A DNA stretch of 64,000 nucleotides from Asparagopsis taxiformis (lineage: Eukaryota; Rhodophyta; Florideophyceae; Bonnemaisoniales; Bonnemaisoniaceae), in contig JALQPE010002093.1 of assembly GCA_030407315.1 (NCBI GenBank), positions 36,052 to 100,051 of the forward strand. The letters are read 5' to 3'. A program made the position numbers and the translations under genes. The notes under the pieces are model-generated. The model ran no database searches. It was not told where the DNA came from and saw nothing but the letters and a program-made list of their open reading frames with translations. Below, piece after piece: positions 889 to 64,000 of the stretch (positions are counted from its first letter, which is position 1; each line of letters begins with the position of its first letter).

Positions 889-1093
889 TGCTTTGGTGAG
901 TGATTGACAAACGAAGAGTGAAAGATTGAGAAAGAGAGAAGAAGATCTGAACGACAAGCTGTTTTGCTGCGTAAGCTGAGTAAGATAGGCGAAACTTAGA
1001 GATCTGACATATTCCTATTAGTATACACCCTGGTAATGATATTCAGCGGTTGACCAATCCGAACCTTCCACATCACTTTTCGTTGTACGACAA

Positions 1094-18485: not shown

Positions 18486-21400
18486 CTAGTTACAGTCGAA
18501 TCCTAGGATTCGGAGAAGCTTCTTGTAGGGAGAGACGGCCGAGAGACGTGGTTGATGGGTTGTTGAAATCACACGTTGCCACATTCGGCTTTTCACATCC
18601 ACTTTCGTTCGTCCGCGATGGTAAATTTCCTCCATGGGGATGAGAACGAAAAGTGTGTTGATCAATCCAACGGAAACCCTGAAAAGCCGTACGTGGCACC
18701 GTGAACAGCGCTTTGTGCAAGGAGTGAGCAGTGCAAATTGTCGCTGGCATTAGCAGGGACGGAGCGAATTTCGTAGGTAGGATCGATGAGCTTCAAATTG
18801 ATCTCCCTTCCACGCTTCTTAAAATCCCCGTTAATCTTATCCTTGAACCACAGACCGACGTCGGGCAAGTGCTTATTCCCTGACGCGTCAAAGCCAGTGG
18901 TGACCTGTTCTTTCTCTACAAGTTCTAGCCCGGCACCTTCGGCAATCCCAATGACCATGTGCCCCTTCGATCGTATCATATCCTCAATGTACTGGAAAAG
19001 ACCACACTTACCTTCCAGTTCGAATTTGACCTCAGGAATGAGGCAGCAATCTACATCCCTAGATGCGAGCGTAGAAAACATTACAATCTGACCCGAGTGT
19101 CTACCCATAAGTTTCACGAGTCCTATTCCGTTAAGTGCACTCCTTGCCTCTGTTTTTGCACACTTGATGCTTCGTTGCGCTTCTTCCACAGCTGTGTCAA
19201 ATCCAAAGGACTTGTCTATCAACGCAATGTCATTATCAATCGTTTTCGGGATACCTACTACTGCAGCCAAATAGCGGCGGGCCCTGAGTTCTTCAAAAAT
19301 CTTCACAGCACCACGATGGGTACCCCGAAATCAACTTTTCTTCGCCTGAGCTCGGATCCGTTGTCTCAAAGTAACTTTCCACTTTCAACATATGACCGGT
19401 TGGGTTGAAGAGAAGGAATCGAAGCGGAATAACAGATGTGGGTATGATCCCATTGTTCATGAATGTGGAGACGTTGATCTCTACAACAAATACTCGCAGA
19501 CTGCAGCATCGATTCGCATATCGTTGGAACATTCGACGGCAAAGGGCCTCAATGTCATCAATCTCTACCTTGACAGGCGGAATCACATTGAGGAAAATAT
19601 GGTTGAAATCGGTTCTCCGGAATCGACAATCGCAACTTGCCATTTCTACTGCATCTAGAGCCTCGACAAAAGTTCTTTCCGCGTCGGGGATCGATACAAT
19701 GGCACCAGCATTTGAAGAGGCAAAGATATTAGCCAGTCTGATAACAGCTCGGACAAAAACTCTTGCATCGATATCCCGATCAGATCTAGTTGGTTTCTTC
19801 GCATCTGGCATCCCTGGGGCTGGTTTCCCGCTTTGCAAACTATCTGTAGACTCTGCCCTGGATGACCCAGGATACAGATGTTGTCCGGTTCGCTTCGTAC
19901 GGGAGCCATCAGAGACACTTTCATTGAGAGGGGGGCGTTTTGCAGATTTCGAAGAATCTTCACTTCTCTTCTTCCGAGTAGTAGACTTGTCCTGAGCGAA
20001 GAACACATGCACAGAACGCGTAGGATAGTCAAAGCGAGTAATCGAAAAGTTGGATAAGCGAGACAACTCAAGCTGGAACGCCATAGGAGGATCAATATGT
20101 CGGAATATAGGGTCCTCATTAAAATTATCCTGTACCCGGAACGTGTAGAATCCAGGATAAGTCACAGATTCACTTGATGGGGTAGGAGCGACAATAAAGG
20201 ATATCGTCTTGAGCCCGGCTCTTGACGACAATTCCATTCGACTGGCCTTTGCGCGACAAAAGGCTGACAAGCTTTGGCTCATCAATACTTCGGACGCTAA
20301 TGGATCACGTAGGGTATCATTACGGCCTGTCTGTTTCCCCTCTTTCGAAGATTCTTTGTACTTTGCTGTATCGGTTGTATTACCCGGCGCACTTTCATCC
20401 CATCGTAACAAGACTGTCATCACATTGACATTCCTGGGCTGAACTGCTTTTGCAGAATTTGCGTACGCACGCAGCACGTGCTGCTCAAGAATCATGTCAA
20501 ATTCTGCTTCCATAGATGACCAGTTATCAAATGCTGCCATTAATCCTCTCCTATACGGCTCACTTTCCGACTTATCAGAAGTGCCTCCATTTGCATAAGA
20601 GAGATTGTCTGCAGAATCGAAAGACGAGATTCCCTTTGGAACTTGCAGTTGGCCATTACCCGTTCCTTTCATTGATCGTACTACAGACACAGGAGCAGTG
20701 TGTTCGGCTTTCACAAAACGGAACTGCCACTCTGCTGTTAATGCAGAACAGTTGAGCAATCCACTCCCAACTGACATGGTGAGATTGGATACTTCATACG
20801 CTCGGTAGGACCTTAGCAATTGAACTTGAATAGCAGCACGCCTAACTTCAACAGACACAGACTTGGCATCAGGAGGGAGGGCAAAAGCAACCAGGACATC
20901 CAAAATAGACTCACTCAGGCCGACAATAATGTACATCTGATTGAAGCCCGTGATCTGGATTGAATCGCAAACCATCTTTGTATTATGGCCGCCACGCGAA
21001 TACCCCAATATACTGCCACCATCATGATGAATGGACTGAACCTTATCCTCCGTAAGTGGAATAAGTTTGAGATGGGTCGAATAGAATCCACGATAGCCAT
21101 ATGGAATTCCAGAAATATTCTGACCGCCATACAACAGCGAAAGCGTAATCACCAGCTCACGAATAACAGAATTGAGGCCAGGACACAAACCGCCGCAGGT
21201 GACGATACATGCACGGACCATATTGCGCGGATGAAAAGCGAGCAGCCCTCTGGGACCTGCACGGTAGAATTCGCGACACATGGTAGTGTTCTCCGCATCT
21301 GAAATAATGTCGACAAGAATGGTATCATTGGCGCCGACAAAGCTCATGCAGCTCATGCCGAGGTTGCTCTGACCGGAGGGGTCGGATCCTAGCGGGCTGG

Positions 21401-29930: not shown

Positions 29931-30574
29931 ACTCAGTAGTGGTGTTAGAAGGCCCTCCAATACAGGACATGGACATTTCCGTCACCGTGGTAAAGTCCGC
30001 CTACGTCATGGGAGGGTACGTCCCAGATGCCGACGACTTTGACCCGCACAGTGGCATGCTTCGCCCCACAAACGTGTCGAGGCACAAGCAGCAGCGCGTC
30101 TTTGCAACTTCATCATTCGGCCCCGCAAAGAGATCGCAGTACTCCTTTGTCGTCATCTCCGGAACTGCCGATGACTACAGAACCATATGGGTAGGGCGCG
30201 TCCTGGCACTGGTACGCCTGCAGTCTCCAAACCTGTTTCAACCTGTAGAACTCGCTTTCGTTCAGTATATGACCTGCTTTGCCCCAAAAACCGCTGTGGA
30301 AAAATCACTTGGGTGCATTTGTTTAAAGTGGTCCACATGGGACCCGGACAACGGATCCGTTGACAGCAATGACACTGCATCCCACAGTGCAGGTGGCCCT
30401 TGGTTTGACCTCATTCCTGCATCTACTATATCTGGCACCGTGCACATCGTACGAAGTAACTTTCCAGTCAAGCCATTTACGAAACAAATGCACTGGTCGG
30501 ACCACCGTTTCTATCTCAACCGCTTCTACACCAACACTGATTACCAGTTCACAGATGATAATGAAGAAGAATAA
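29921..30574 (+). pseudogene. Plavaka/CACTA transposase C-terminal-like fragment
   Basis: 217-codon frame without a good start (it opens on TTG; the first ATG is at 29968). The pattern IWVGRVLALVRL...LAFVQYM...WF(D)LIPASTISGTVHIVRSNFP...HRFYLNRFYTN resembles the conserved C-terminal end of Plavaka-like transposases (a GRV...L..VxW block, a 'lIPlsxI...cHlip' block, then a 'FYvNpf' end). The catalytic region is missing, so this would be a 3' remnant or an internally deleted element. It ends 77 bp before the stop of the convergent ORF at 30652. Alternative: a free-standing unknown protein. Confidence 0.35.
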
Positions 30575-30651: not shown

Positions 30652-32735
30652 TCAACCATCCTCCATTACGCCAAAACCGTTATCGGCAGTGGCTGGATGG
30701 CGCCGCCCCATGCCCCCATACGGTGGGGCATTGATTTCGACATTCAGGTTTGCACTCAGGTGTCCAGCATATGGGTCAACGACGAAAAGTTCTGCGCCAA
30801 TTAGTCCTTGCGCAATCACACAATCCATTACAGCACCGAGGTTTGACGTAATATGCGATTGAATCCAATCCTCGGACACTAGAACAAGTGATGAGCAGCG
30901 GTTTACATCATCAACGACATGAACAATTCCAGACCCCTCTCCGCTTTGCCACACTTCAACAGCCTCTCTCGTCACAGTACGGCTTGCAAACACATGCCGT
31001 GACTGTGCACTACTCCGCTGTTCGCTCTCGACAACGTCCGTTTCTTCCCTTGCTTGCGAGCCTTGGAGACAAGACATGCAGTACACCACCTTACCAACTA
31101 ATTGCTGAAAAGCTACCCCCACATATTGACTGTACCGCCTTGTAAACTCCTTCTGCCGTGCACCTCCTTTCCCCTTCGGTTCATCCAAACACTCCACAGT
31201 AGTCACTAGCCAAGCATCCAGGCGCGCCAGCGTTAGTATGCTCGTCTCTATGTCCATTACTTGTTCTGGTCGTATCGAATAACCCCTGAAGATGTCCAGC
31301 ACATTCACAGCTACTCGGTTGTTAAACCATGCATCACCATTCACTTCCATTTCGAAGCTGTCAGGAACCAAGCCTTTGCTGTATCGCAGCTCTGAGAACG
31401 GTGCCGTTCGCCACCTCCCCATATCCAAATCACCGTTGCTTTCCCGTTTCAAAAGCTTCTCAGGCGCTTCGCGCTTTTGATCCTCTCGCTCGTCCATCTC
31501 AGCTCGCGTCGTCAGCATCGTGCATCTAGACATTAATTTCGTGTACCCCAGCGAACCGAACAATCTGTCCCTCGCATTACGCTTCCGTGCACTCATCACG
31601 TCGGACAGTTTCTGCGTCACCTTCACTTTCAATTCCTTGCTCCCCGCCACAGCCTCTTGACAGCACACACGCTGCTCCTCATCGGAAAACACATCACACC
31701 ACGGACTTTGACGCAGTACGTGTCGCACCAAGTCATTCAGCAGATCACTCTCATCCCTGTACGAAGGTGTATACCACTGCAGATTCTTGATGATATAGCC
31801 CGGAGGGGTAGCAATATATCCTACACCGTTTTCGCTCCAAAGTGCCCCTTCTACCGGCTCTACCTCGATGGTACGTCCAGTCCAACGTCTCTGCGTTTGT
31901 TCCGCTATAGGGTCCAGCTCCATAGTCTCGTTCTTGCACCACTTTGTCAGGTTTTCCTCAACCGCCCTAAGAACTCCAAGGTATTTCACAGGAATGGCTT
32001 TCTGTATTTTCGACTTACCGCCACCGTGATCACTGATTCTACCTGTTCTCGCAATTGCAGTAAGGCTGGCATTTTCCGCCTGCAGAGTCTTCACCTTAGC
32101 CTCCAACGCAACTATCTCCGTGGTGAGCGCCTTGTTTGCTATGTCCTGGCTAAACACTTTTTTTCCAGCTCCGCGATCTTCTTCTTCTGCGCATTGATGC
32201 GACTCGCCATTAAATCGATGGATTCCGGCGGATGCAACCTCTCTGCCCTCACCGTCCCCCCATCTCGCACGCTATCGGGATTATGATGTCCTCCATCGGC
32301 AACTTGCCGCTATTGAATAGCCTGACGTCGCGGGGGCGTTACGCGCATATTTGGCACCAATGACAGTCTGTTGTGACGAGGCCCGCACTCCGGCTGCTCT
32401 CTCCCCTCAGTACCACCTGACCGCCGATGATAGTTGGCATCCTGTGAACGTTGCTCAGAAACAACACCCCTTGCCGCTATCCTCGGGTCCCTGACTGCAT
32501 TACCTGCTGGGGCTGATGTACTCGGCATAGTTGGCGCAGTGGGGGTCACAGTCTCCAGTGTCTCGCGAACCCCCGGCTGGGACTCCGTCTGCAGCACCTC
32601 CGCATCTGCCAACCCGGGAGGAACTACCTTTGCCATAGCACTCTGCCGCAATTCCAACATGTTTTGAGCCACTATCATGTCATCATCATGATGTTCACTG
32701 TCCCTGCGAGCACGCTTGCCTCGGTCAAGCCCCAT
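30652..32735 (-). pseudogene. Unrecognised coiled-coil accessory protein, interrupted by a stop and a frameshift
   Basis: The parts share one direction: 141 codons from 32735, an in-frame TAG at 32310-32312, about 50 further codons with a charged coiled coil (INAQKKKIAELEKK), a shift in a run of A at about 32160, then 501 codons to 30652. Residues just after the shift continue the coiled coil (IVALEAKVKTLQAENASL). Mid-protein is the MSARKRNARDRLFGSLGYTKLM segment shared in outline with the ORF at 27701-29239. There is no recognised enzyme domain. The N-terminal portion is Pro/Thr/Ser-rich. Probably a transposon accessory gene in early decay. Confidence 0.4.
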
Positions 32736-33128: not shown

Positions 33129-33375
33129 AATTACAGCTGTCGAGCTAGGCCGCGAGCACCCCTATGTCCGGAAGACGTCCTGATTTGAATTAAAATTTGG
33201 GCTATTCTCAAAAACATGCACATGTGAACATGTTTTTGAGATGGGGGTGTGCCGTACGGCACAATCGACCCGCTGAAATCGATGTTTTTTGCAATATTTT
33301 TTTCTGCCCTGAATTGTAGAATTTCTGGGCTGGACAGCAATGCAACTGAGCTGGACATCCACCGGGCGTCCATTT
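33129..33375 (-). repeat. Terminal-type repeat R1 (minus orientation)
   Basis: Read on the minus strand it contains GGACGCCCGGTGGATGTCC, TTGCATTGCTG, a perfect GTGCCGTACGGCAC palindrome, the hairpin CTCAAAAACATG...CATGTTTTTGAG around a CACATGTG core, then CAAATTTTAATTCAAATCAGG, GGGGTGCTCGC and GACAGCTGTAATT. Its outer ~60 bp match the outer part of R3 (38340-38586) in opposite orientation, so R1 and R3 are candidate terminal inverted repeats of a 5.46-kb element enclosing the methyltransferase-SET gene. Confidence 0.75.
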
Positions 33376-33605
33376 CAACCTGGTCGTGTATTTTGCATCT
33401 GCACGCATAACAGCATCCAAGCAGTCAGGTTCACTGCTCGGATGAAGTGCACCTGGAGTGTGAACGATTGGTTTTTGACAGGTGAGTACTGCCGAATAGG
33501 TTTCACCCTGGACTAATGGTGGCTGGACATGCTGCATTATATGATATACTTCAACTCTGGAACGTAGCTTTATTTGTAGTCGAAATGAGAACATCTTTCG
33601 TGACC

Positions 33606-35714
33606 CTAATTCCATGCTCTAAACGCTGTCCCATAATGAACGTAGAGCTCCTGCCCTAGACGGATATCGTAGATTGCACGTACTACGATGATCTTCGGAT
33701 TTTCTAGGTCCTTCGCCTTGAGCTTCTTCCCCGTCGAACCGCTGCTGTAGTTCTCGACAAACTCGACGTTGGCCATCCGCCTGGTGTCTTCCGCCGGAGT
33801 GTCCTCACCTCGCAAATACCGCGGGTCGTTGATGAACTGCGCCGAACAGAACGGAGCCGGAACAATCCAAATTGGATGCTCGATGTTTTCGTCGTCCTCC
33901 GCTGTTGCATACAGCTTGATGGCATACATCAAGAATGTTTCCTTCGTTATCGCCATGTGACCCTCTCCGTACGCGAACCTCATCGACTCCTTGCTCATAT
34001 CAGAGTACACAACAGTTCCGTAGTATGCACATACTTCGTCGCCAACATTAAATGTCTGTTCAGCGAAGAGCCCTCTTCCTGCATTTGGATGCTTAATCAG
34101 CGATGGTCGAACGCTCAATTTTTTCGCAACACAATCGTGTGCCCGCATCACGCGAGGGTTTTCACTTTGCAACCAGCGGCGCAGGGAAGGTGGCCAATAA
34201 TGTACCGGTTTTTCCATGTGCTCGTGCGACGCAATCGACTCTGGGCACAGCTGCCAGAGGTACTGCCGAATATATTTCGGGAACCTCTGGTACAGGGGAA
34301 GGCCAGGTGGGGGTTCGATGATCCTGCGTTCCCTCTGTGTACGCATCGTGACAGAGGGGGACGCCAAGAACTTCTCAGCACTCTGTTTCGCTTCTGTCGT
34401 GACCCTCATGTCAGTGTTGTTTGAAAGAATCACACGTGACATGACTGCACACAGCTTTGGAAGCGATCGTGCCACACACAATTTGTCCATGTCACTGCCG
34501 ACGAAAACACGGTGCTCAGGCAAGCTCATAGCTGCTTTTCCCGTTGCGAAAGTGCCAGAGAATGGATCGACAACAATATCACCAGGCTGTGAATGCTGGC
34601 TGATCAACTCCATCATGAGAGCGACGCTCTTCTGCTTTGCACGAACTCTGACCGTAGCACCGGTTGTGCTCCTTGTTCGCCACACCATCTCATTCGAATC
34701 GATGGCGGGCATATTGATGGTGACGTTGCACCACGCCGGGTACGTGCCGTCCATGTATCCGTGGTTCCTATAGGCCACCATCTCGCTTCCAGTCTTGAAC
34801 GGAACACCTCGCTTCCAGAAGTGGATAGCGACCTCTGCCATGTTTATGCGTTGGTACCTCTTCCGCCCCGGCATTTGATAGAGGTGCCCAGGTAATCGGA
34901 CAAACAACAGAGGTACCTCGTCAACGAAGAAAACTGAATTCCGAACGACGTCCTCCTCCTCCTCGTCCTCCTCCTCATCCTCATCCGCACTTTCTTCGCC
35001 ACTGTGCTGCGATGCTTCGGAGTCCGAATTCATGGACGTAACCTCTTCTTCATCCGACCCGTCATCACTGGCAGCAGCATCGGTTGGGCCTTCTGACTGC
35101 GGTCCTTTGTACGTTTCCAAGTAATGGAACCATTCGTAGAACTGCAAAACGGAGCAGAACACGATGCCGTGGCCACCGGGGCGCAACAGCTCGTCAAACA
35201 CTTCGATGCTAGCCTGCATATCTTCTGCAGTTAGCCTGTCGTACGAAGAGTTGGAATCGTTCCTCTTACGACGAACATTGTAGGGCGGATCAGTCAGAAT
35301 GAGCTGAACGTTGCCCGTGATGGGCACGTGTTCTCGGCTCTCGTCGGCACTGACCAAATCTTCGAAAGGGACGTCGTACACCCGGCAATACTGACTCATT
35401 TTCGAAAGAAAGTCCTTTGCGAGAGCCTGCCCTTCACTTTCCTGCTCTTCTGTCGCATGGGGTGACGGTGACGGGGGAGACGGCCCTTGGGCAGTAAGAC
35501 TGGTCCTCCCAGGTCCAAGTTGAAGCCTGGTTGTGTGTCTTGTCGACGGAACCAAACCTCTCCCTCCTGTGTTGCGACGAGTGGGAGTGTCATCAACCGG
35601 CTTGGGGACCTTTTCTGCGTCCGCGGCTTGTGGTGCCGGGCGGAGGACAGCCATAACGTCTTCGTCGAGGGTGTCAAAGTACGCTGGCAGCTTGTCCGGA
35701 TTTCCGCTTGACAA
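33606..35714 (-). CDS. DNA methyltransferase (beta-class, DPPY) fused to a SET domain
   Basis: 702 codons; the frame opens on TTG and the first ATG is codon 21. Motif IV DPPY is at 142-145, in LILTDPPYN. An acidic insert (~205-258, nearly all D/E/S) follows, then AEVAIHFWKRG (~293-303), motif I DPFSGTFATGKAA (~383-395) and a GSDMD acidic turn (~407-410). The order IV before I is the beta-class order of amino-methyltransferases, and DPPY rather than SPPY favours N6-adenine over N4-cytosine. Residues ~532-702 are a SET domain: GRGLFA (546-551), CAYYG (562-566), CSAQFIND (623-630, the NHS/C-type knot position) and LGQELYVHYG (686-695). No bacterial restriction partner is near. The frame continues upstream through a single TGA (35733-35735) into the 358-codon ORF, so both were probably one protein. 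Expected role: methylating DNA and a histone-like tail (inference). Confidence 0.75.
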   Translation of the reverse strand: MSSGNPDKLPAYFDTLDEDVMAVLRPAPQAADAEKVPKPVDDTPTRRNTGGRGLVPSTRHTTRLQLGPGRTSLTAQGPSPPSPSPHATEEQESEGQALAKDFLSKMSQYCRVYDVPFEDLVSADESREHVPITGNVQLILTDPPYNVRRKRNDSNSSYDRLTAEDMQASIEVFDELLRPGGHGIVFCSVLQFYEWFHYLETYKGPQSEGPTDAAASDDGSDEEEVTSMNSDSEASQHSGEESADEDEEEDEEEEDVVRNSVFFVDEVPLLFVRLPGHLYQMPGRKRYQRINMAEVAIHFWKRGVPFKTGSEMVAYRNHGYMDGTYPAWCNVTINMPAIDSNEMVWRTRSTTGATVRVRAKQKSVALMMELISQHSQPGDIVVDPFSGTFATGKAAMSLPEHRVFVGSDMDKLCVARSLPKLCAVMSRVILSNNTDMRVTTEAKQSAEKFLASPSVTMRTQRERRIIEPPPGLPLYQRFPKYIRQYLWQLCPESIASHEHMEKPVHYWPPSLRRWLQSENPRVMRAHDCVAKKLSVRPSLIKHPNAGRGLFAEQTFNVGDEVCAYYGTVVYSDMSKESMRFAYGEGHMAITKETFLMYAIKLYATAEDDENIEHPIWIVPAPFCSAQFINDPRYLRGEDTPAEDTRRMANVEFVENYSSGSTGKKLKAKDLENPKIIVVRAIYDIRLGQELYVHYGTAFRAWN

Positions 35715-35732
35715 GTATATTTCCAGCGCCCC

Positions 35733-36809
35733 TCAGCGGTCGGACTCCGGCCAGGTGTACAGGTCCGGGTTGACGATAAGAAACTGCAACCGGTCGAAGA
35801 ACTTCCTCACAAGGTCCCTAAATGCACTGTGCTGCGCACTGGTTCTTGTCTCTACTTTTCCACCATATCCATCAGGATGAGATAGGGGAGCTTTGTCGTG
35901 GTAGAGATCTAGCTTCTGCTCCATCGGTGCGAATAGACCTTCATCGAGCACGTCAAACCAATGCTCACTGCTGTCGAAAATGATGTACGGCGCCATCAAC
36001 TCTTCGAAGCTGGAAAACTTTGCGGCGAAGGCCACATCGGTCCAAGCATGGTATAAAACTTGAACCACGTAACAAGCTCGATTAGTGCTTTTCCGATGGG
36101 CTGGGACGCGTGCGGCTTCGTTCCCCTCTTCGGCCGCGTCGCCTATTCGGCGACGCGGCAGGTTCTTGTTGTGATTTCGGATGATAGACAACGCTTGGAA
36201 ATACATCAATACCTCGAACGTTTCCGGTGGAGCAAGAACGAAGGCGCTTGGTTCCCCGCGCTGCGGCGCCTGTAGTGGCGAAGGAAGCATGTTACATCCA
36301 ATAAGGAAGGTCTGCGGCACGATCCCAGAAAGGATGCAGTGCTCAACCCATTGCCCGATACGCTCATCCTGTCTTGAAAACTCGGCAATCGGTAATGCCA
36401 GACGAACAATCTGCTTGGCTCGCTCAACGTTCATCTCTGCCATGACGATTTCGGCAACATCCGCCTCGACTCCAGCATTCTTCGAACGACCGCTGAAGGC
36501 CATGCTGAGTCGACCTTGCAGCGCCGCAAATTGTTCTTCCGTGCCCTGCGCAACCCAAGCGCCAAGGTCCGCGTATGTGAAACCTCCCAGCTTGTCCGTC
36601 AAGTCTGCGAAACTTGAGTGGGCGAACAAATCCAGCAAGAGGCGGAGGAAGTCTTTGCCAGCGAGAGTAGTTTCGCGGGCGGCGCGACCTACGTTTCGAC
36701 GTGTACCCATGTCACTAGAATCCTCCCAAGGGCTAGCGGGTTCGCGCAGAATTGGCACGGTTGCGTCGTCAACGATCGGATTGCTGTTGCGCCTGCGCTT
36801 ATTCGTCAT
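35733..36809 (-). CDS. Unrecognised N-terminal part of the methyltransferase-SET gene
   Basis: 358 codons from the ATG at 36809, ending at a TGA (35733-35735). The MTase-SET frame that follows is the same reading frame, with 6 codons between this stop and the TTG that opens it. The N-terminus (TNKRRRNSN) is basic. The rest is mixed helical with aromatic-rich patches (CYVVQVLYHAWTDVAFAAKF; EHWFDVLDEGLF; FFDRLQFLIVNPDLYTWPE). No family recognised. If the TGA is a recent mutation or is read through, the full product is about 1067 residues. It could be a targeting or DNA-recognition domain of the enzyme. Confidence 0.55.
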   Translation of the reverse strand: MTNKRRRNSNPIVDDATVPILREPASPWEDSSDMGTRRNVGRAARETTLAGKDFLRLLLDLFAHSSFADLTDKLGGFTYADLGAWVAQGTEEQFAALQGRLSMAFSGRSKNAGVEADVAEIVMAEMNVERAKQIVRLALPIAEFSRQDERIGQWVEHCILSGIVPQTFLIGCNMLPSPLQAPQRGEPSAFVLAPPETFEVLMYFQALSIIRNHNKNLPRRRIGDAAEEGNEAARVPAHRKSTNRACYVVQVLYHAWTDVAFAAKFSSFEELMAPYIIFDSSEHWFDVLDEGLFAPMEQKLDLYHDKAPLSHPDGYGGKVETRTSAQHSAFRDLVRKFFDRLQFLIVNPDLYTWPESDR

Positions 36810-37112: not shown

Positions 37113-37343
37113 CATCACGCTTACCAGGTGAGCGACATCCGGACGGCCACTGGACATGGGGATGTCCAGCTCAGATGCATTGCTGGCCAGACCAGAAATT
37201 CTACAATTTCGGGCAGAAAAAATATTGCAAAAAACATCGATTTCGGCGGTCGATTGTGCCGTACGGCACATCCCCATCTCAAAAACATGTTCACATGTGC
37301 ATGTTTTTGAGAATAGCCCAAATTTTAATTCAAATCAGGATGC
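37113..37343 (+). repeat. Terminal-type repeat R2
   Basis: Plus-oriented copy of the R family (GTGCCGTACGGCAC palindrome, CTCAAAAACATG hairpin, end ATTCAAATCAGG). The R1/R3 outer extension is missing after CAGG. It lies inverted relative to R1 and just upstream of the methyltransferase gene, so it is an alternative right end for a smaller (~4.2-kb) unit. Confidence 0.7.
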
Positions 37344-38339: not shown

Positions 38340-38586
38340 TTAGAGCAGATAGCTATTGCATTGCTGGCCAGCCCAGAAATTGTAGAATTTCGGGCAGCAA
38401 AAATATTGTAAAAAACCTTGATTTCAGCGGGTCGATTGTGCCGTACGGCACACCCCCATCTCAAAAACATGTTCACATGTGCATGTTTTTGAGAATAGCC
38501 CAAATTTTAACTCAAATCAGGGTGTTCCCCGGATAAAGGGGTGCTCGCAGCCGCCCCAAAAGCCGCCTAGCTTGACAGCTGTAATT
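38340..38586 (+). repeat. Terminal-type repeat R3
   Basis: Plus-oriented copy with the same palindromes as R1. After CAAATCAGG it continues GGGGTGCTCGC...CTAGCTTGACAGCTGTAATT, mirrored at the outer side of R1 (33129). It ends ~280 bp before the start of the ParB-dioxygenase fusion gene. Confidence 0.75.
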
Positions 38587-38868
38587 TTAACACATTACAC
38601 ATCAAGGACACTGCCTGCTTCACGCCACCTCGTCAGGTTTCGAGAGCCCGACTCGGGCCCGTTCCGAACGGACACTCACATCTCGATTGCCTGTCTTGCA
38701 TTCCAGCGGTCACGATAGGTGTGTACCTAACAAAATTTCGTTTGTATTGTGTTATTATTTCCAGCGATTGGCGTTCACGACCATTCTTCAAGCAACGTGA
38801 AACCTACCATCCACATCACTCGAATACGTCAACGTCAACCATCTCTTTTCCTTTCCAACTCAACAACC

Positions 38869-41800
38869 ATGGCGGATACGCATTTCAGCAGTTTGTTTTC
38901 AACGGTTTGCGGCGATCAAGTGAGCGCGTCAGCGGAGTCGCGCGGACTCAAGCGCGGCGTCGATGTCAATTTGTTTGCGGACGTGGACGGTGCGGCTGTG
39001 CATATTGGGACGGCTTCGGTGAGCACTGCTGGTGGCGATGTTGGCCTTCCGCGCACGCTGCACAACCACAAGCTGCCGGAAACCGACGAGGCGGACTATA
39101 TCGTCGTGCGCAACATTGCGACTAAGGACAAGTTCAAGGACCTCCCGTTCCCGTACATGTTTGATGGCGCCGAGGGACCGCCGGAGACGATGGGTGGAGC
39201 ATACGCCGCGGCGTTTTACCCTTGGGATACTCGGATGATGCGCCCCGCTGCGGAGGATGGCCCTAGCGACATTCGTACCCCTGCTGCAGCGTCAAACTTC
39301 AACGCAGCGACGAACCAGGCCAGCTCGGGACGGATGCCCAGTACCGGTCCAGCAGGCGAAATCACTGGTTCGGGGGGTACGAAGCATCCAGCACGCTCCG
39401 TCCCGGTTTCGGGAGGCACGAAGCGCCCTGCTCGCTCTGCAAGACCCTCCAGTGGAGGCACGAAGCACCCTGCTCGCTCAGTGTGAGGCACGAAGCACCC
39501 TGCTCGCTCCAACGTCACCGAAGCTACTACGCAGGACGTAACCGAGGTGGACGACGAACCGGAGGTGGCGGAAAGCATTCGTGAGCAGCAGGGGACGCAA
39601 ATTACGGTGCCCAAGTTTGTGACGTCGGATTACGTCGGAGAAGGAGCGACTGTGTTGGTGAGGCAGCTAGTGGAACCGGCCGTGACCCTTCGGGATGTGA
39701 AAGAAGACCACGTGGAGGACCTGCGCAACAATATGTTGGCTGTGGGGTATGTGAGCTCTTCGCGTATCACTGTGACGGTGCTGAGGTCGCAGAACACGCA
39801 TCTGCCCGCCGACACGCGTCTGTTCCAGAATGGCAAATTCCATGCCAATGCGAACGTGACCGTGATCGACGGACTGCATCGTCTCAATGCTATGCATAGC
39901 ATTGCCGATGACTTCACGCGCCTCACCCGTATGCACAGAACCAAGCTGCCACAGGACGCAAACCGCTTGCGCTGGGTTACTCAGCCTCTGGATGTGTACT
40001 ACCTTCGCCGCAAGGACGACAGTGATCTTCAGCCTCATGAGATCATCCACAAGAGTGCAGAGTCGAACCATACGACTGGGACGCAACTGACGGAGCGCTC
40101 CCTGGTTCGAATCTTGTCGTCCATCCAGCAGTTCATCCGTACGATTGCTGTTGCAAATAACGTGGAAAACGCTGGCGACTTGCGTGAGTCTGATGTCATC
40201 CGAACATTGTTCGAGGCGCAGTTCATGGGGATGATGAATTCAACGAACACGGCCCGGCGGTGGACGCGTTTGGCTATAGCAACGCTGAAGCATCCTGTTC
40301 TCGACGAAGTGTTGCGTGAGCTGAACAATTCCGAGCGCCGCAACGAGATTGGGATAACGCACCTGGACCACAAGATAGTGCGCGAGTTGCTGGAAGAAAA
40401 CTTTGTCTTCGTCTTGCGTGGTCTTTCGGAGTACTTGAACCCTGCTCATGGTGGACGTCCGGATGGACGCTTTGACGTGAACGACTTCTATACATACGTC
40501 CGTCGCGTGACTGCAATAGCAAATTCTCTGTACGCTGCGTATGGGCGCCCAAAGAGTATTATGCGCAAGTCATTTCTGAGCACAGAGATGGCAATTGGGT
40601 CGGTTAAGCAGCCGAAGGAGTTGCAATGGCATCTCACCAATGCCATTGCAATGTATAGAGGGGACGACCGGAGCAGTGAGGTTCGAATGCGACGGAGAAC
40701 CACGCGTTTACAGGATTTGGAAACGAACTTGAAAGAGTTTTTCAATCCGACATTGAAGAAGAAGACTAAGGCTCGACGCAAACGCCGCCCTTCTGCTGCC
40801 AATGTGAGACTCACTCACAAGAAGCAGCGGAATGTCGAACATGAGCCTGCTTCGCATGGCATCCGCCGCCGTTCACAGCGACTTCGCTCGACGGGGAGCA
40901 CACGCCTCGAGGAAGAAGAGCCGGTTGTGGTACAACAATCCGCCGGGGAAGAAGAGCAGGCCGTTGTTGATAAACCCACCGATCAACAACAAGCCACTGT
41001 TTCCGGTGATGAGGGTGACGAAGACTCCGCCCGTTCCCCCGATTCTGCCGTTGAGATTGTCCCCCAAGATAACCAACGTGCTGGTGCGACTCCCTCCAAC
41101 CAAGAATCTGTCCATACCGCTTCGGACGAGGAAGACAAAAAGGGTGCAGACGAGGGCCAAGTCGAAAGCAAGGGGGTCCGCGAAGTGACAATTACATTCA
41201 CTGTTCCGGAAGGAGTGGAAGTCGATGAAGACGGTTACATCGTTCGTGACTCTCCTTCTGAACACGACCTCCTGTTCGACGACCGTATGCCATCTCTTCC
41301 TGACGATTTCGAAGTCAAAGACCGAGCCGAAGGGCATCATCTGGCGCAGCGTCCCGCGGACGTCATCGCATCGGTGAGGGTTGGCTGTCTGCCCCCGATT
41401 GAGCTCAGGTTGTTATTGGAGAGTGTGGAAATCGATGAGGAGGGCAGAGAGGTGAGGTATTTGAAGCAAGTGGCGATGGACCCTGTGTTTGAGGGGCTGC
41501 ATATTCCGGAACAACATCGGGCTCGTCATCTTGTTTTCGAGATCGACACCATCTATCCGATGTTTTTCGCAGCGTGGAAGATGGCTGCCAAGGCGATGTG
41601 TGAGCCTACATCGACGTTTCTACCCTCGAGGCTGGACTTCGCCCAGGTTGCGCGAATGTCTACAAGCTGGAAGGATTCGTATGAGGCCGGCACTGGTATG
41701 GCGTACTTCCACAATTGCCGAACGGAAATCAACGAGCGAGGGTATACGGTGATGCACAATTTCGCGGATGTAAGCTACCTCGATGCGTCGGACAAGTTCC

Positions 41801-42825
41801 CATTTGACTTGGGTCTCATGGAAGAAATTCCTAACCAGGAATTGTTTCGGTACTTCTTGGGAACATGGGAGGGGGAGCAGGTGCACAAGGACCCTGGGAA
41901 CCGGCAGCTGTGGAGTCCCATTGTCAATACAGGGGACGATGAAACAGATGAGAAGAACCGGAATGAGGGGAGGGCTCGCTTCACGTCTACGCGCCACTGC
42001 CTGGTTGACTATGCCGAGAACGATGAGACGCATATCGACCGGTTCAAGTTTGTGACGCGGCGAGCCCTGCTGGATGTGTGGTTGGGAATCCTTGTCCGGC
42101 TGATAGGGCTGGAGGAGTGCGGTTTACCGGGAGAAAAACTTGTCATGCCGGCATCTGGGGGACGGTTTTTGATAACGGGAAAGGGGTGTCCTCGGCAGGT
42201 CCCACACAATGATTTCCCTGTTCCTCCTCGCGACCGCAAAGATCAACTTCCGGGTTACTTTGTTATTGCCAACGGAGATGACCCATTCCCTATCTGGGTG
42301 TGTCCAGGGTCCCACAAGTACGTCTTTTCCAAAGCGCTGGAATTAGATATGTACGCCAAGACGATGAAGCTGAAGAAGGTAATCGTTCCGCCACGTTCAG
42401 TCTTCATCGGTCACGGCCATGTACAACATGCCGGGGCAGGGCATGTCGACAGAGTTGTGTCACACACGACAACGAGGTATCACACGTATTTCAGGAATGC
42501 GTCGTATCCGATTCCCGACAATGTTTCGTTTGGTTTCATCAGGCGGTTGGGATTCGAAGAAGAAGTAATCGCCAATGCTCCGCGCCGGTCTGCCAGGCAA
42601 AGTCAACCGGCACCTGTCAATGTTCGCCACAAGACAGTTGTTCCCATCCCGGTCAAGAAAGATCGTAGGCCGAAGACAGGGCAGCTCGGAATGATGCGGA
42701 TGAAGACGACAGAACCTCGCAAGCCTATATCCTACACAATTAGTGGGGTCCCGGTGATGCCTATTCTGCCGGGAGATCCTGATTATAGTGAGGACGAAGA
42801 GGAAGAACAATTTTCCGACGGCTAG
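38869..42825 (+). CDS. ParB-like domain fused to 2OG-Fe(II) dioxygenase (one in-frame TGA)
   Basis: A single reading frame runs from the ATG at 38869 (context CAACCATGG) to the stop at 42823-42825: 1318 sense codons apart from one TGA at 39484-39486 (codon 206). The TGA lies in a four-fold GGTKHPARS repeat and changes one of its glycine codons. Layout after it: a ParB/sulfiredoxin-like domain ~250-420 with VIDGLHRLNAM (codons ~332-342), a helical region to ~610, basic patches (KKKTKARRKRR), a long acidic linker (~690-860), then the dioxygenase fold (~920-1255). In the latter, His1113-Asn-Asp1115 (HxD), distal His1187 (HVQHAG) and Arg1203 (TTRYH) give the Fe(II) and 2OG ligand set. ParB folds bind DNA and 2OG enzymes can oxidise methylated bases; that this protein does so is inference. 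If the TGA is lethal, translation could still begin downstream. Confidence 0.75.
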
Positions 42826-43089: not shown

Positions 43090-43308
43090 CACGATACACG
43101 ATCAACCTGAAATGGACGTCCGGTGGATGTCCAGCTCAGATGCATTGCTGGCCAGCCCAGAAATTCTACAATTTCGGGCACAAAAAAATATTGCAAAAAA
43201 CATCGATTTGGGCGGTCGATTGTGCCGTACGGCACACCCCCATCTCAAAAACATGTTCACATGTGCATGTTTTTGAGAATAGCCCAAATTTTAATTCAAA
43301 TCAGGGTG
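43090..43308 (+). repeat. Terminal-type repeat R4
   Basis: Plus-oriented R-family copy, including the inner GACGTCCGGTGGATGTCCAG block, GTGCCGTACGGCAC and the CTCAAAAACATG hairpin, ending ATTCAAATCAGGG. It lies downstream of the fusion gene in direct orientation with R3. Confidence 0.75.
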
Positions 43309-43334
43309 TCTAATTTGGCCACAACGGCCCCAGG

Positions 43335-45035: not shown

Positions 45036-45245
45036 TCCTAGGTGGACATAGACATGGCGGAAGTCCATCCCAAGGGGGACATCCGTGGTACTAGAAACAA
45101 TGAATGTCGTCCTAGTAATACTAGACGTACTAGACCGCATGGACGTCCGGTTCTAGGCGGACATCCAAAAATACTGGAGAACATGGACGTCCGCCTAGTA
45201 ATACTAGGTGTACTAGAGGTTGTGGACGTCCGCGTCCATTTCCGA
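45036..45245. repeat. Repeats with CTAGTAATACTAG palindromes
   Basis: ATGGACGTCCG and CCTAGTAATACTAG recur with variants (twice or more each). The block abuts the 3' end of the piggyBac remnant. Confidence 0.5.
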
Positions 45246-46629
45246 GAACACAGACGATCCCTTTGTAGCATTCTTGACGACACCAGTGAAACGTAGCCCA
45301 TGCTTGAAGAGTATTTCTGCCGTTTCAACAGAGGAAAAGTATGAATCGGCACACACACGAGGCGATGAGTATAAAACCATGGATCGACGAGCCTTAATGT
45401 GACGGCAGCACCATGCGTCGTTTCGGACTCGAATGCTTTTCCACGTGTCTCCTCAGCTGACATCACAACATCCATCCTGAGAATAATGCCACTATTGCCA
45501 CATGATGCAGTTTTCAGCTCACATCCATTCTCAGGCTTACGGTCCATCGCTACGTAATGTGGGAGTCCGATGTCGATCCAGTCACCTCCCAGACCATACC
45601 ACCTTTACATACTCTCATCCACACATATAGAATCTGACGGGAATACCTGAGAGCTTCTGTGGTAATTGATGGCGGTGATAAACTCAGATATGACACCCCA
45701 CCGGTCAGTTTCGTCACGAACCTTGGAGTATGTCACGTACTGCCTCAGCTCTTCAAACCTTTTGCGTGACATGATGTGCCCGAGCATTGGTGTGGGGATG
45801 TATTTAGTCCCGGATTGACTACTCCAGAGAGAGCGCCTACCACTGAACTCAAATCGTGACATGAGTACAATGACTCCAAAATACTTCAAAATCTCTCCCA
45901 GCGAGGTCGATTTGAGATTCCGCTTTTCTAGCTCGTAATTGGAGTATGACACGATAGTACTTAAAAATCCCATCGGAAACATCCACTGGAAATATTCATA
46001 TGGTGTCATATCTGATGGACCGTGCTCCTCGGATATTATCTCATCCAATGGCCCAATCACCCTCCACTACCGATTGGGGCGCCAACCATTCATTTGCATA
46101 GATACATCAGATACAATCTATTCCACGTCATTGCATATGACAACCGGCTCATCGGTTGACCCAGTGTCACATGGCTGAGTATTAACACTCGTACTCAAGT
46201 CACGCTCTTGCGGCGTGACTGCATCTGATTTTTCGGCCTCATTCCCGTCACCCCCGGTGTCTTGAGCTTGATCTCCTCCTTCGGTCACACGGTCTTCTTC
46301 ATCACCTGCAGGTGCCTTCACACTGCAGAGACGCAGGGATGTCACCTTGTTACCATCGGCCAGCTCCCACTCAGCCTCGATAGATGTCATCATTCGCTTG
46401 TTGCCTCTCTCCTTAATGACTCGAATGACAGTTCCGGATATCATCTTTGTCTTCCATCCGGCGCCATACATCCTGCGACATTTAGAGATATACGTCAGTT
46501 GTCTGGCAGGGGCGAGAACCCTGTTTCCGATAACTTGGCGACAATCAACTGGTTTCACCATTTTTTGTGATTTCAGGATCGAGATTGAGTTGACGTAGTT
46601 TGCTGATGGAAGGATTAAAATTTCAGCAT
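45235..46629 (-). pseudogene. piggyBac-type transposase remnant
   Basis: Minus-strand frame carrying the DDE_Tnp_1_7 pattern. It has a helical N-terminal part (FQWMFPMGFLSTIVSYSNYEL, LGEILKYFGVIVLM, RKRFEELRQYV). The first catalytic Asp is in CVDESM. KPENGCELKT follows, and then a third-Asp region CADSYFSSVETAEIL that lies in another frame after a 2-base GT expansion near 45380. In-frame stops occur at 46118-46120, near 46073 and at 45605-45607. The upstream part is cut by the Harbinger insertion at 46630. Long dead. piggyBac elements cut and paste at TTAA, but the ends are not visible here. Confidence 0.75.
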
Positions 46630-46632: not shown

Positions 46633-46985
46633 GGGCCTTTCTCACGAGCAGAATATGCTCGAGCATGCTCGCGCATGCTGGGAATAGAGGGCTGTGATTG
46701 GCTCGTCCGCATAGAAGTACGGGACACCCTTTCTTGATTTATTAAACACGTAATCTCTGTGCTCGCTCCACTTGTACATTATTTGGTGGAGGCCAGTGAG
46801 GGTATCCTCGGCAACCGTTAGCCAGCTTGGGTATCCGCCAAGCACTTGCACTTCCCAACCAAAATCTACCCGCTTGTTTGACCGCTGCCGATACTGCGCA
46901 TTTTACTAGACCACACAGTGCATCAAAGTCTACAACACACCTTCCCTGAGAAAAGAGCGAATCGTGCTACCATGCAGAATCGAGC
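46633..46985 (+). repeat. Left terminal inverted repeat of the Harbinger element
   Basis: 353 bp, mirrored at 50698-51050. It contains the palindrome-rich GAGCATGCTCG cluster near the tip, and the ATG plus next three codons of the transposase at its inner end. Confidence 0.9.
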
Positions 46986-48174
46986 TTTGTCAACTTGCGA
47001 TCCTATTTCCTCGAGTGATGATGAAGATTTTGGGATTGTTCTTCTCCTTGGATACGTTTGCATGTTTCTGCAAGAGGAGGAAAGAAAGGCAAAGCGCAAG
47101 GTAGTATCCAGCACCCATTGTCCATGCCGAAACCGTTGCAAATCGTTTGCTTGTCTTACCGCCACAATGTCTCCATCAGACTTTCACCGGACGTTCAAGA
47201 TGACTCCGGATGCATTCTACAATTTAGTGAACATCTGCAATCCCATGAGACAAACACAGGTAACCAAAGAGTCTAAAAAAAAGAGACTTAGACTGGACAA
47301 CGACTTATGCATGGCTGTTACATTTCGAATGCTTTCTGGTGGAAGCTACCTGGACATACGCCTTTGTTATGGAATATCTGTAAGCGCTGTCTATCGGATA
47401 TTTCATAATGTATGCAGCAAAATGATGAGTGTCCTTGTTCTTCCTGGTATTCCTAATAGTGTTGAAGCACTTCTAAAAATGTCTTCAGATTTCAGATCCT
47501 CGAGGGCTAAAGAAAATCCGCTAAACGGATGTATAGGTGCTTTGGATGGAATTGCAATCAAGATAGCCAAACCAGGCAGGGATGAACGTCCAGCGGCATA
47601 CTTCTGTCGCAAAGGATACTACGCCCTCCCTGTCCAAGCGCTTGTAGATGCTAATTATAGATTCTTATGCTTTTCAGCACGATGTGTGGGGTCTACGCAC
47701 GACGCAATGGCACACGCAATATCCGGTTTGGGTTTATATTTGGGCGACGGGAGGCTTCCAAAAGAGTTTTGGATTTGCGGAGATGAAGGATATGTATGCA
47801 AAGACTCCTTAATCACTCCGTATCCCCGTACACAATGCACAGAAAAAGAGATGAATTTCAACTTCTATCTATCTTCACTTCGCGTTCATGTTGAACAAGC
47901 GTTTGGACAGCTTGTAGCATGCTGGAGAATACTGAGGGGTGGGCTAGAATACACGCTTGAGGGTAACGCTCGTATAATATGCTTGTGCATGAAAATTCAT
48001 AACTTTTGCATAGACAACGATGGAAAAGGAAGAGATATAATCGTGAGAGAAGATCGGAAAAAGAGAAATAACATGGAAGAGCAATATGCATATGAAATCG
48101 CGAAGGAGATGGCCATGGAATTACACACAATGCCCAGAAGTACGCAAAAGACAATCTCTCAGAAAAGAGTGTGA
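46972..48174 (+). CDS. PIF/Harbinger DDE transposase
   Basis: 400 codons from the ATG at 46972 (an earlier GTG at 46918 is in frame but not needed). It has a helix-turn-helix region (VTFRMLSGGSYLDIRLCYGISVSAVYRIF). The DDE_Tnp_4 core follows: first Asp in GALDGIAIKI, YYALPVQALVDANYRFL...GSTHDA, second Asp in CGDEGYVCKDSL, and Glu in RVHVEQAFGQLVACWRIL. C-terminal basic tail. No stop or frameshift is seen, so it may be functional. The start codon lies in the terminal repeat, so its promoter is the repeat itself. Confidence 0.9.
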   Translation: MQNRALSTCDPISSSDDEDFGIVLLLGYVCMFLQEEERKAKRKVVSSTHCPCRNRCKSFACLTATMSPSDFHRTFKMTPDAFYNLVNICNPMRQTQVTKESKKKRLRLDNDLCMAVTFRMLSGGSYLDIRLCYGISVSAVYRIFHNVCSKMMSVLVLPGIPNSVEALLKMSSDFRSSRAKENPLNGCIGALDGIAIKIAKPGRDERPAAYFCRKGYYALPVQALVDANYRFLCFSARCVGSTHDAMAHAISGLGLYLGDGRLPKEFWICGDEGYVCKDSLITPYPRTQCTEKEMNFNFYLSSLRVHVEQAFGQLVACWRILRGGLEYTLEGNARIICLCMKIHNFCIDNDGKGRDIIVREDRKKRNNMEEQYAYEIAKEMAMELHTMPRSTQKTISQKRV

Positions 48175-48189
48175 TGCAATTTATGTTGC

Positions 48190-49020
48190 AAGTGCGCGCG
48201 CGGGTCGGAGCGATGCGTCGCGTTGAGTCCGCGTGCATCCGCGTTTAGTTAGTTAGTAAGCGAGCGTACGCGTGGCGATACAATTACGTGTCACGGCGCG
48301 CTTGCGCGAACGCGTCCGATTGCGTGCTTGGCGCCACGTGTAGCGCCTTTTGCGAAATTCCCTTTATTTCCCCTTTTTGGGTTTTTTATGACGAAAGTCT
48401 TTCTCCCAAATATTTCCCTTTTTGCGTGCGAGCGAGCGGCCGCCGGCCGGCCGCGCAAGGACAACCTGTCCTTAGTAGTTAGCTATTAATGGTCGTTCTG
48501 CTTCGCACCTTACCAATAAACAGTCAGCATCTTCGCAGCTACGAGTTAAGCGTTTAGCGAATCGCGAGGACCGATTGCGTTGAAACGTTGCGTGCGGGTT
48601 TGCTCACGATCGCCGACGTTCGCGTGCGCGCTGCGCATAAACCGATCGTCGAACCGCGTCGCACCGCGATAGCGCGCGTTGCGTCGCACGCCACTAGGCC
48701 AGGGATTTACGACCCCTGTGTGGATCGCGTTGGGCTCGAGTTTACTCGGTGATCTCACCCTGAGATCACGGCTTGCGCCGGCCCGCGAATCCCGTGTTGC
48801 GATCGTTCCCTACGCGTTCCGCCGTTGTACCACCCGTTCGCCAGCGCGACCGAGCGACGCGCGAACGCAAGTTCAACCAGCGCGTTACGGTTCACCTCGC
48901 CCTGACACGGCTGCAATTCTAGAACTCCCTTAGCGATCGCCACCCCGGCTGGTCCTACAAAGAGATCTATTGCGAGATATGGCATGGGACGCAAAGCGGA
49001 ACAGGAAGTCACAGTAACAT
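48190..49020. other. GC/CpG-rich insert between the two Harbinger genes, possible solo LTR
   Basis: Base use changes sharply from AT-rich to CpG-rich (CGCGCGCGGG, GCGATGCGTCGCG). It starts near TGTTGCAAGTG and ends near CAGTAACA, has an AATAAA near 48515, and resembles the composition of the chromovirus LTRs without being a copy of them. I could not find an exact target-site duplication. No ORF of note. Confidence 0.35.
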
Positions 49021-49118
49021 TTTTCCCCACTTAGGCAGCATTTGTAAGCTCAGAGTGCACGAAACTTGCAGATAGAACCGTCTGCAAAATATATTAAAAC
49101 AAGTACTTTACCATAGAC

Positions 49119-50711
49119 CTATAGTAACTCCTTATACTTTCTCTCCATCTCCTCGTAGTGCCTTTGAGCAATATTTTGGAAGCTGCTGTTATTTGTTAGA
49201 TTGGCGCTCTCAAGTGTTTTTGCAGCTCTTTCTAGCAGAGACATCACTCTATCCTGCTCGATCGCTCTTGAAAACACAACAGAACCTTCGTTGCGTTCAT
49301 CGGAAGAAATTGTTTTAGCATCATCGTCATGGAGTTTTCTACTGGATTCCATTCCGGGATTATCATACCAGTTTCCCAGCTTAATCTTCTGGATCCGACC
49401 ATAGTCTCTGAGGACATCATCAAATACCTCCAATCTCGATGCTGAACTTCTAGTATCGTCAATACCCCTTTTTCGTCTGACAAAGTCAGAAATAGGTGGT
49501 GAGGAGGACGGTGTTATTTCTAGTGACGGAGTACATGAAACACCTTCTTCATAACTAGTTTGGTCTCTACCGGTGATATCGATTGTTCTTGAAATCAGTC
49601 GAAGGAAAGATTCATTTGGTGTTTTTGTGTCCAGTTGTGCAACAGAGAACATAATATAGACACGTTTAGAATCTTGAGAAAGATCTCCACTACCAATATA
49701 GTCCAGAAACTTCGGGAATCTCTGCGGATCATTCTGACCTGAGCGAGCCCAGCGCTCTTTCACCTTTGCAAATGAGGTCTTTGTATCTAAGAATACATTC
49801 TTAAGCTTCGATGCCGATCTTGGTACCAGAGGTAAACGTGTTGCATCAATACCGTCGACTCGGCCACTCATGTCAATTCCGTTCGACAACCTTGCGTTAT
49901 TAAACCTTCTCTGTATTATTTTCCAGAAAGAATCACGAGTACGCCCGTTGTCCATATCCAATTTAGACATCTCTTCTTCAGTGGCTTGTATGGCTGCAGA
50001 TTTTGCTATCTGATCATTTCGCAATATTATCATCAGCCTAGCGAACTCAGAAAGAGAGAAAAATGGTTCCATTATTGTTTCCTCTTGGATTCTATCTGAA
50101 TCAATATCTATTATGCGTTTAGGCGTCTTTCGAGAACCTCTAGAGCCATCAGAGACAGGATATTCAATTGTGCGTCGTTCGGACGATGATTGAAACATGT
50201 TCTCTATTTCAGATCTTTCTTTGGCATCAACTGCTTGCAGTAGCACTTCACGCCCCGGATAAACCTTGTACCAACCCTTGCGCTTCTCTTTTGTCTCCCT
50301 AAACTCGTCTAAACTAGGAATAAAACGGTTCCGTTGTATGACATCACTGATTTTGTCTCCCTTTCGTGCTTGCAATACAACCCAAAGCATCGCTCTTGCC
50401 ACCATGACATCTTTCACGCCTGAAACAGTCAATCCCCAAGCTTTGTTAATGTTTCGGAGCTGCACCTGCTTACAGCTATAGAACAAGGAGAAAACCTCAT
50501 CAAGAAGTATTGTGCTATGTTTAGTGACGTCTGCACCGATTTCATCTTGGTTGGATCGATGACGAGTTGGCGATTTTCCTTCTTCGCTGTTGGTTGATCT
50601 TGTGCCTAGTGGTTGCCGGGTTTCGGGACTTGGAACTGTTGGATCAACTACTGCAGACATTGGATGGGAAGAGCTTCCATTGCCTGGAGGTTGCGGTGCT
50701 CGATTCTGCAT
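49119..50711 (-). CDS. Harbinger accessory Myb/SANT-like protein
   Basis: 530 codons from the ATG at 50711; the first codons (MQNRA) are identical to those of the transposase because both lie in the terminal repeat. The mid/C-terminal region has the Myb-like pattern of Harbinger partner proteins: DSFWKIIQRRFNNAR, then LKNVFLDTKTSFAKVKERWARSGQNDPQRFPKFLDY. A nuclear-signal-like RKRG and acidic stretches follow. The C-terminal end is helical and Glu/Lys-rich. Such partner proteins bring the transposase to the element ends and to the nucleus. The two genes converge, separated by the GC-rich insert. No disabling mutation is seen. Confidence 0.7.
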   Translation of the reverse strand: MQNRAPQPPGNGSSSHPMSAVVDPTVPSPETRQPLGTRSTNSEEGKSPTRHRSNQDEIGADVTKHSTILLDEVFSLFYSCKQVQLRNINKAWGLTVSGVKDVMVARAMLWVVLQARKGDKISDVIQRNRFIPSLDEFRETKEKRKGWYKVYPGREVLLQAVDAKERSEIENMFQSSSERRTIEYPVSDGSRGSRKTPKRIIDIDSDRIQEETIMEPFFSLSEFARLMIILRNDQIAKSAAIQATEEEMSKLDMDNGRTRDSFWKIIQRRFNNARLSNGIDMSGRVDGIDATRLPLVPRSASKLKNVFLDTKTSFAKVKERWARSGQNDPQRFPKFLDYIGSGDLSQDSKRVYIMFSVAQLDTKTPNESFLRLISRTIDITGRDQTSYEEGVSCTPSLEITPSSSPPISDFVRRKRGIDDTRSSASRLEVFDDVLRDYGRIQKIKLGNWYDNPGMESSRKLHDDDAKTISSDERNEGSVVFSRAIEQDRVMSLLERAAKTLESANLTNNSSFQNIAQRHYEEMERKYKELL

Positions 50712-51050
50712 GGTAGCACGATTCGCTCTTTTCTCAGGGAAGGTGTGTTGTAGACTTTGATGCACTGTGTGGTCTAGTAAAATGCGCAGTATCGGCAGCG
50801 GTCAAACAAGCGGGTAGATTTTGGTTGGGAAGTGCAAGTGCTTGGCGGATACCCAAGCTGGCTAACGGTTGCCGAGGATACCCTCACTGGCCTCCACCAA
50901 ATAATGTACAAGTGGAGCGAGCACAGAGATTACGTGTTTAATAAATCAAGAAAGGGTGTCCCGTACTTCTATGCGGACGAGCCAATCACAGCCCTCTATT
51001 CCCAGCATGCGCGAGCATGCTCGAGCATATTCTGCTCGTGAGAAAGGCCC
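50698..51050 (-). repeat. Right terminal inverted repeat of the Harbinger element
   Basis: 353 bp, mirror of 46633-46985; it holds the ATG of the Myb-like gene at its inner end. Confidence 0.9.
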
Positions 51051-53552: not shown

Positions 53553-53651
53553 CTGGTCTCTCGACCTAGAAGTTGCTACGAGCATAACGACAACCAACGA
53601 GGTTGAGCTCTTTTACGTTAACGAAAAGCTACGTGCTACAGACGACGGTCT

Positions 53652-63960: not shown

Positions 63961-64000
63961 ATAAGCTAGTTTTGTATGAATTGTGGCAACTAATGGACTG

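Follow-up and report, generated by a model that had tools for sequence, protein, structure and literature searches.

The gene at 33606-36809 of the window, by which we mean the whole 64,000-nucleotide stretch of contig JALQPE010002093.1 from the red alga Asparagopsis taxiformis, belongs, as an accessory gene, to a high-copy, 20-21-kb DNA transposon of the Plavaka type. Its product begins with a helical N-terminal region, followed by a beta-class N6_N4 DNA methyltransferase (MTase) and then by a SET domain, and is referred to here as MTase-SET. We propose, with moderate confidence, that this protein writes methyl marks on both the DNA and the histones of the element's own chromatin and in this way prevents its silencing. 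A sequence-only reading of the same DNA had recognized the fusion of the two domains in one frame, which stands and is kept in distant relatives, and had missed the role of the gene as transposon cargo.

That reading treated 33606-36809 as one uninterrupted gene. This is correct for intact copies elsewhere in the genome, which have a continuous frame of 1067 codons whose starting ATG is the counterpart of 36809; in the window an in-frame stop that had been overlooked (TGA, 35733-35735) lies between a frame of 702 amino acids (aa; 33606-35714) and one of 358 aa (35733-36809). The motifs DPPY and DPFSGTFATG are at the residues originally given, in a numbering that began at an internal TTG and not at the true start, and lie within a PF01555 match (residues 136-411 of the 702-aa frame, E 4.7e-16) in which motif IV comes ahead of motif I, the beta-class order. 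Further along the same frame, as had also been claimed, PF00856 matches residues 546-695 with an E-value of 2.3e-4 and a score of 22.0 bits, just below the curated Pfam SET cut-off of 22.4 bits, and the score rises above that cut-off in the intact relative P0001 (29.3 bits) and in L097 (28.0 bits), a diverged gene of the same genome. Foldseek searches with an AlphaFold2 model returned a CcrM-like fold for the MTase half, and SUV4-20 (5cpr, 1.9e-5) and MLL1 (6u9n, 5.4e-5) for the SET half. NCBIfam and PHROGs supplied a useful name only for the MTase half, and the VIA-align rows likewise reach only that half, so the SET assignment rests on Pfam and Foldseek. Canonical SET domains carry the catalytic motifs NHxCxPN and ELxxDY; here the first is replaced by IND...NV and the domain mostly ends in an ELF/ELYxxYG-like sequence. 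PRDM proteins likewise deviate from NHS.

The transposon itself is defined by its ends. Comparison of contigs showed that the left and right ends of the element share a 34-bp inverted terminal repeat, and in the 141.5 Mb of genome scanned the terminal pattern has 1364 + 1392 = 2756 matches with three mismatches or fewer, compared with 0 for the reversed control. Nine facing left/right end pairs, 10-21 kb apart, were chosen from the terminal matches listed, and six of them have identical 2-bp flanks (TA, AA, TG, TT, GA and AT; 1 in 16 expected, p 4e-6). Two of the nine hold a listed MTase-SET copy, one on C52 (20.0 kb, TA/TA) and one on C88 (20.8 kb, with the non-identical flanks TG/GT). With a further 21,014-bp element that has both ends and is flanked by TG and TG (C215, contig 101419-122432), the tally of identical flanks becomes 7 of 10 pairs (p 4e-7). 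This C215 element contains a full transposase open reading frame (ORF) that matches the Plavaka model PF18759 (E 1.7e-24; 87.1 bits, the cut-off being 26.3), and from left to right its gene order is Plavaka transposase (+), coiled-coil-like gene (-), MTase-SET (-) and a ParB/oxygenase-like gene (+), the last of which is interrupted in this copy. The termini, CGTCTG..CAGACG, match neither the TGT..ACA of PlavakaA nor the CATCA..TGATG of PlavakaB; the element thus has a Plavaka-type transposase and belongs to neither subgroup described for fungi. The window holds a decayed copy, left-truncated at ∼29947 and with interrupted frames.

Many copies of the gene are present. When the genome was searched for SET matches, 140 of the best 150 of 1661 candidates formed one tight score group, and all 20 loci fetched from this group proved to be the MTase-SET gene, which is more than chance would give. 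For the 17 of the 19 other loci that are among the matches listed, the longest segment in common with locus L009 has 98.1-99.3% identity, extends to as much as 9.7 kb and takes in neighbor genes. Sixteen of 20 copies, picked by hand and many of them for their long frames, are intact over ∼1067 codons, and for 65 of the 140 listed copies the open frame measures 1065 aa or more. The stop in the middle of the window copy might point to a chance read-through, an assembly artifact or an ordinary host gene, but this explanation is scarcely credible, being contradicted by these intact copies and long frames, by the shared architecture of distant relatives and by the presence of a second family in the same genome.

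Across 17 copies (the 16 intact ones and that of the window, comprising 14 distinct sequences with a mean divergence of 0.64%) we counted 36 synonymous and 52 non-synonymous changes and one stop, giving a pN/pS ratio of 0.55 (p 0.004), which moves to 0.63 once four broken copies are added. Divided by region, the ratio of synonymous to non-synonymous changes is 8:4 in the SET domain, the strongest constraint, and 15:15 in the N-terminal region.

The wider conservation of the fusion was assessed in a search that covered 5.8 billion proteins, with scoring limited to the 7986 candidates sharing most words. At least 38 matches were obtained, 37 of the 38 being relatives of MTase-SET and the other (P0038) an ordinary MTase. 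P0001 is 98% identical to the window protein over the queried region; the 36 further relatives show 21-37% identity, 23 of them are 950-1190 aa long, and two are named Pyropia yezoensis. In an alignment of 33 relatives (P0014, P0028, P0035, P0036 and P0038 being left out of the 38), a Pfam scan at E 0.01 found PF01555 in all 33 and SET in 26. Motif IV reads DPPY in 27 and DPPF in two, the SET-side N-D pair is retained in 28, and the later N is present in 32. Pairwise distances were compared in Mantel tests of 32, 29 and 28 sequences, which gave r values of 0.565 for MTase and SET, 0.713 for MTase and N-terminal region and 0.642 for N-terminal region and SET, and in no comparison did any of 9999 permutations reach so high a value; such covariation of the MTase and SET distances is expected for a fusion inherited as a unit. 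No relative of MTase-SET was found in viruses by a single-protein scan, and an alignment scan of viruses, using profiles from our own alignment, gave at least 43 loci, with an MTase match in 43 of 43 and a SET match in 0 of 43. Prokaryote genomes yielded one relative of the whole fusion (L099), with the catalytic motif DSPW, on a 3475-bp contig (WTKN01000331.1) of a Moorena metagenome-assembled genome, a cyanobacterial bin; this is probably misbinned eukaryotic DNA.

These patterns bear on whether both halves are enzymes. It is unlikely that one half alone is catalytic, with the other (SET or MTase) acting as a binding or structural module: DPP[YF] is retained in 29 of the 33 relatives and the N-D pair in nearly as many, and SET is the most constrained region among the copies. 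The points in its favor are the non-canonical SET motif, the four relatives that depart from DPP[YF] (DPPQ, DPPL, EPPR and one gap), the MTase of the L098 family described below, in which Pfam finds no SET domain, and the lack of any surplus of synonymous changes in the MTase region among copies.

Next to MTase-SET in the element lies a gene with a ParB-like motif, DGxHRxxA, and the motif HxD..H..R, which is the iron/2-oxoglutarate (2OG) motif of Fe(II)/2OG oxygenases. A full-length search with this gene gave no relative among the matches listed; a domain-restricted search gave four relatives of ∼1200 aa with both motifs kept, and His-1025, Asp-1027, His-1099 and Arg-1115 (H1025, D1027, H1099 and R1115 in P0041 numbering) are invariant in 5 of 5 sequences. 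The oxygenase-like domain has no Pfam match at E-values up to 10, a Pfam scan of the four relatives matched only P0044, to two weak unrelated models, and PDB sequence searches with the domain gave only chance-level matches; its AlphaFold2 model, with a predicted local distance difference test score of 29.5, is too poor for use. At the level of its motifs, the neighbor is a putative Fe(II)/2OG oxygenase.

Both genes are bordered by internal repeats of ∼170-280 bp, and in the two on either side of MTase-SET the segments 33178-33270 and 37248-37340 show 99% complementarity. The internal repeats at the gene borders contain a hairpin-like palindrome (CTCAAAAACATG..CATGTTTTTGAG), and these palindromic border repeats may possibly be a terminator, a promoter or an inserted miniature inverted-repeat transposable element. 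At locus L022 the gene blocks are inverted with respect to the window and at L024 the ParB/oxygenase-like block is missing; in both the breaks fall at the internal repeats, and gene blocks therefore appear to have been shuffled through them.

The same genome contains further families. A second one, represented in the window by two frames near its left end, has its oxygenase-like part in a 1069-1095-aa frame in 84 of 134 scored copies, a length such as would be expected if the oxygenase-like and ParB-like parts were joined in one gene. On C132, C337, C454 and C502 the second-family oxygenase-like frame lies ∼8 kb from a different, 1186-aa MTase frame. The one examined among these frames, that of L097 (on C132; positions 945-3695 of the locus), is a diverged MTase-SET gene with DPPF as motif IV and 23% identity to P0001 over 947 columns. 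At least two families in this genome thus hold an MTase-SET fusion near a ParB/oxygenase-like gene. A third MTase family (L098, on C197; positions 787-2901 of the locus) has no Pfam SET match and ends in a cysteine-rich tail that is PHD-like by eye; another chromatin-type module may replace SET there.

For the host, thirteen phycobilisome matches in the genome, eleven of which share a single contig longer than 210 kb, and the Pyropia relatives indicate a red alga. A search of the genome with the C5 DNA methyltransferase model PF00145 gave no match, although a gene of the host might be concealed by introns or gaps; the same search matched 10 of 14 controls, all of them prokaryotes. PF00145 is also absent from the element proteins scanned, and the observed/expected CpG ratio of the element is 0.99, indicating no depletion. 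Given the missing C5 methyltransferase match and this CpG ratio, a host 5-methylcytosine system is not evident. The MT-A70 search of the genome gave no match in genome or controls and is hence uninformative. It is conceivable, though more likely not the case, that several diverged red-algal transposon families each combine a dual writer of an amino-methylated DNA base and a histone mark with a ParB-guided oxygenase that edits or erases this base; the only evident DNA-methylation system of the genome would then belong to the mobile elements and not to the host.

In the self-marking scheme that we favor, the MTase half would make N6-methyladenine, as predicted from DPPY and the CcrM-like fold, and the SET half is predicted to methylate lysine on neighboring nucleosomes. 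The enzyme may be guided to element DNA by its helical N-terminal region together with its target-recognition part, and there the DNA and histone marks would strengthen one another in cis. The neighboring ParB/oxygenase-like protein could read, remove or further oxidize the modified base. Acting as a dual writer on itself, with this partner assisting, the element would keep its chromatin open. We infer the anti-silencing direction of the effect by analogy with the elements of PMC12730594 and PMC5890265.

A number of observations weigh against this proposal. The marks could equally repress or time transposition, and with IND...NV as its motif the SET domain is plausibly, but not assuredly, active. 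Seven of the 33 aligned relatives have no SET match at E 0.01, and the database's own Pfam list assigns SET to just 17 of the 38 matches. The window copy is itself broken, 75 of the 140 listed copies lie in frames shorter than 1065 aa, and the MTase region, at 6:15 among young copies, has no excess of synonymous change.

Bacterial Dam couples IS10 transposition to replication, or limits its copy number, through methylation, and EnSpm elements are known for regulators that bind their termini. The dual writer might similarly regulate transposition, with methylation of the ends tying excision to replication or limiting copy number and SET acting on chromatin or transposase at the ends. The GC-rich subterminal repeats at the element ends and the sequence specificity of beta-class MTases are consistent with this, as is the resemblance of Plavaka transposases to those of EnSpm elements (PMC12730594); the 2756 ends compared with at least 140 gene copies, however, suggest many terminus-bearing copies without the gene, and we consider such a regulator somewhat unlikely. 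It is quite improbable that the marks serve to silence the element's own copies and thus to restrain it for the protection of the host, in the way that bdelloid N4CMT aids transposon silencing. N4CMT is a PF01555 amino-methyltransferase tied to silent chromatin (PMC8885841), but it is a host gene, and more than 2700 termini are unlike the outcome of strong restraint.

Features of the element and of the second family in the window (window coordinates)
Feature	Coordinates	Strand	Remarks
Plavaka transposase, C-terminal remnant	29947-30574	+	Homology to element copies starts at 29947
Coiled-coil-like accessory ORF	30652-32735	-	794-aa frame in C434, two frames in window; coiled coil by eye
Internal inverted repeat beside MTase-SET gene	33148-33424	-	
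MTase-SET gene, window copy	33606-36809	-	Interrupted by in-frame TGA at 35733-35735
SET domain	33630-34079	-	PF00856, 22.0 bits; Foldseek matches 5cpr, 6u9n
Beta-class N6_N4 DNA methyltransferase domain	34482-35309	-	DPPY precedes DPFSGT
Internal repeat, partner of 33148-33424	37132-37343	+	
Internal repeat, left of ParB/oxygenase-like gene	38357-38552	+	
ParB-like + HxD..H..R oxygenase-like gene	38749-42825	+	Interrupted in window between 39486 and 39547
Internal repeat, right of ParB/oxygenase-like gene	43097-43311	+	
Right terminal inverted repeat of element	45223-45256	+	
Second family, oxygenase-like frame	2465-3343		Homologous to neighbor gene, E 7e-13
Second family, ParB-like frame	3340-5724		Separate from oxygenase-like frame in window

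Elsewhere in the window, a Harbinger-type DDE transposase (+) is found in 46918-50765 along with another frame (-), and the two have their first 20-odd residues in common, as if both started in a shared terminal repeat. A Gypsy-type retrotransposon, recognized by eye, occupies 53652-59548 with a G+C content of 57-59%, and the observed/expected CpG ratio across 53600-64000 is 1.62. At 19293-21356 one frame runs from phosphofructokinase (residues 49-146) into the central region of acetyl-CoA carboxylase (144-464), a chimera or an unspliced junction. The 1267-aa frame at 7060-10863 has no Pfam match, is partly repeated in L018 and L028, and is perhaps another transposase-type protein.

DNA and histone methylation are normally coupled through separate reader and writer proteins, and here both writer domains lie on one polypeptide encoded by a genomic parasite. 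If active, MTase-SET would represent a natural dual writer in compact form, and evidence that transposons can introduce a bacterial-type base mark into the chromatin of eukaryotes; since the search detected no C5 enzyme of the host, methylation by the element could then be distinguished from that of the host. The sequence-only reading knew of no fusion of this order, and the literature searched (titles and the starts of abstracts, among the matches listed) likewise held no report of a DNA-methyltransferase/SET fusion in a transposon. Transposons encoding a DNA methyltransferase, a SET protein or a TET/JBP protein singly are known; we did not find the dual-writer protein reported. The MTase half shares its fold with CcrM (PDB 6pbd) and M1.HpyAVI (5hfj), which are bacterial, lack SET and are 19% (6pbd_A) and 25% (5hfj_C) identical to it. 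Bdelloid N4CMT bears a chromodomain, and is a host gene with a reader in place of the SET writer found here and with N4-methylcytosine as product (PMC8885841). Retrotransposons with C5 DNA methyltransferases in Symbiodinium and charophytes (De Mendoza 2018, PMC5890265) are likewise high-copy mobile elements with a DNA methyltransferase, but their enzymes are C5 enzymes of host origin, whereas the present element is a DNA transposon with a bacterial-type amino-methyltransferase joined to SET. SET genes occur in Phytophthora HarbingerS and MuDR elements (Kojima and Jurka 2014, as cited in PMC12730594), which are also DNA transposons encoding a SET methyltransferase; they belong to other superfamilies, and the text that cites them speaks of no DNA methyltransferase there. 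Many fungal DNA transposons, Plavaka included, carry TET/JBP genes (Kojima 2025, PMC12730594), and these Plavaka elements have in common with ours the Plavaka transposase, terminal inverted repeats, a 2-bp duplication and an epigenetic accessory gene; the red-algal element differs from them in its host, in its CGTCTG..CAGACG termini, in an oxygenase-like partner that Pfam does not match, and in carrying MTase-SET in place of TET/JBP.

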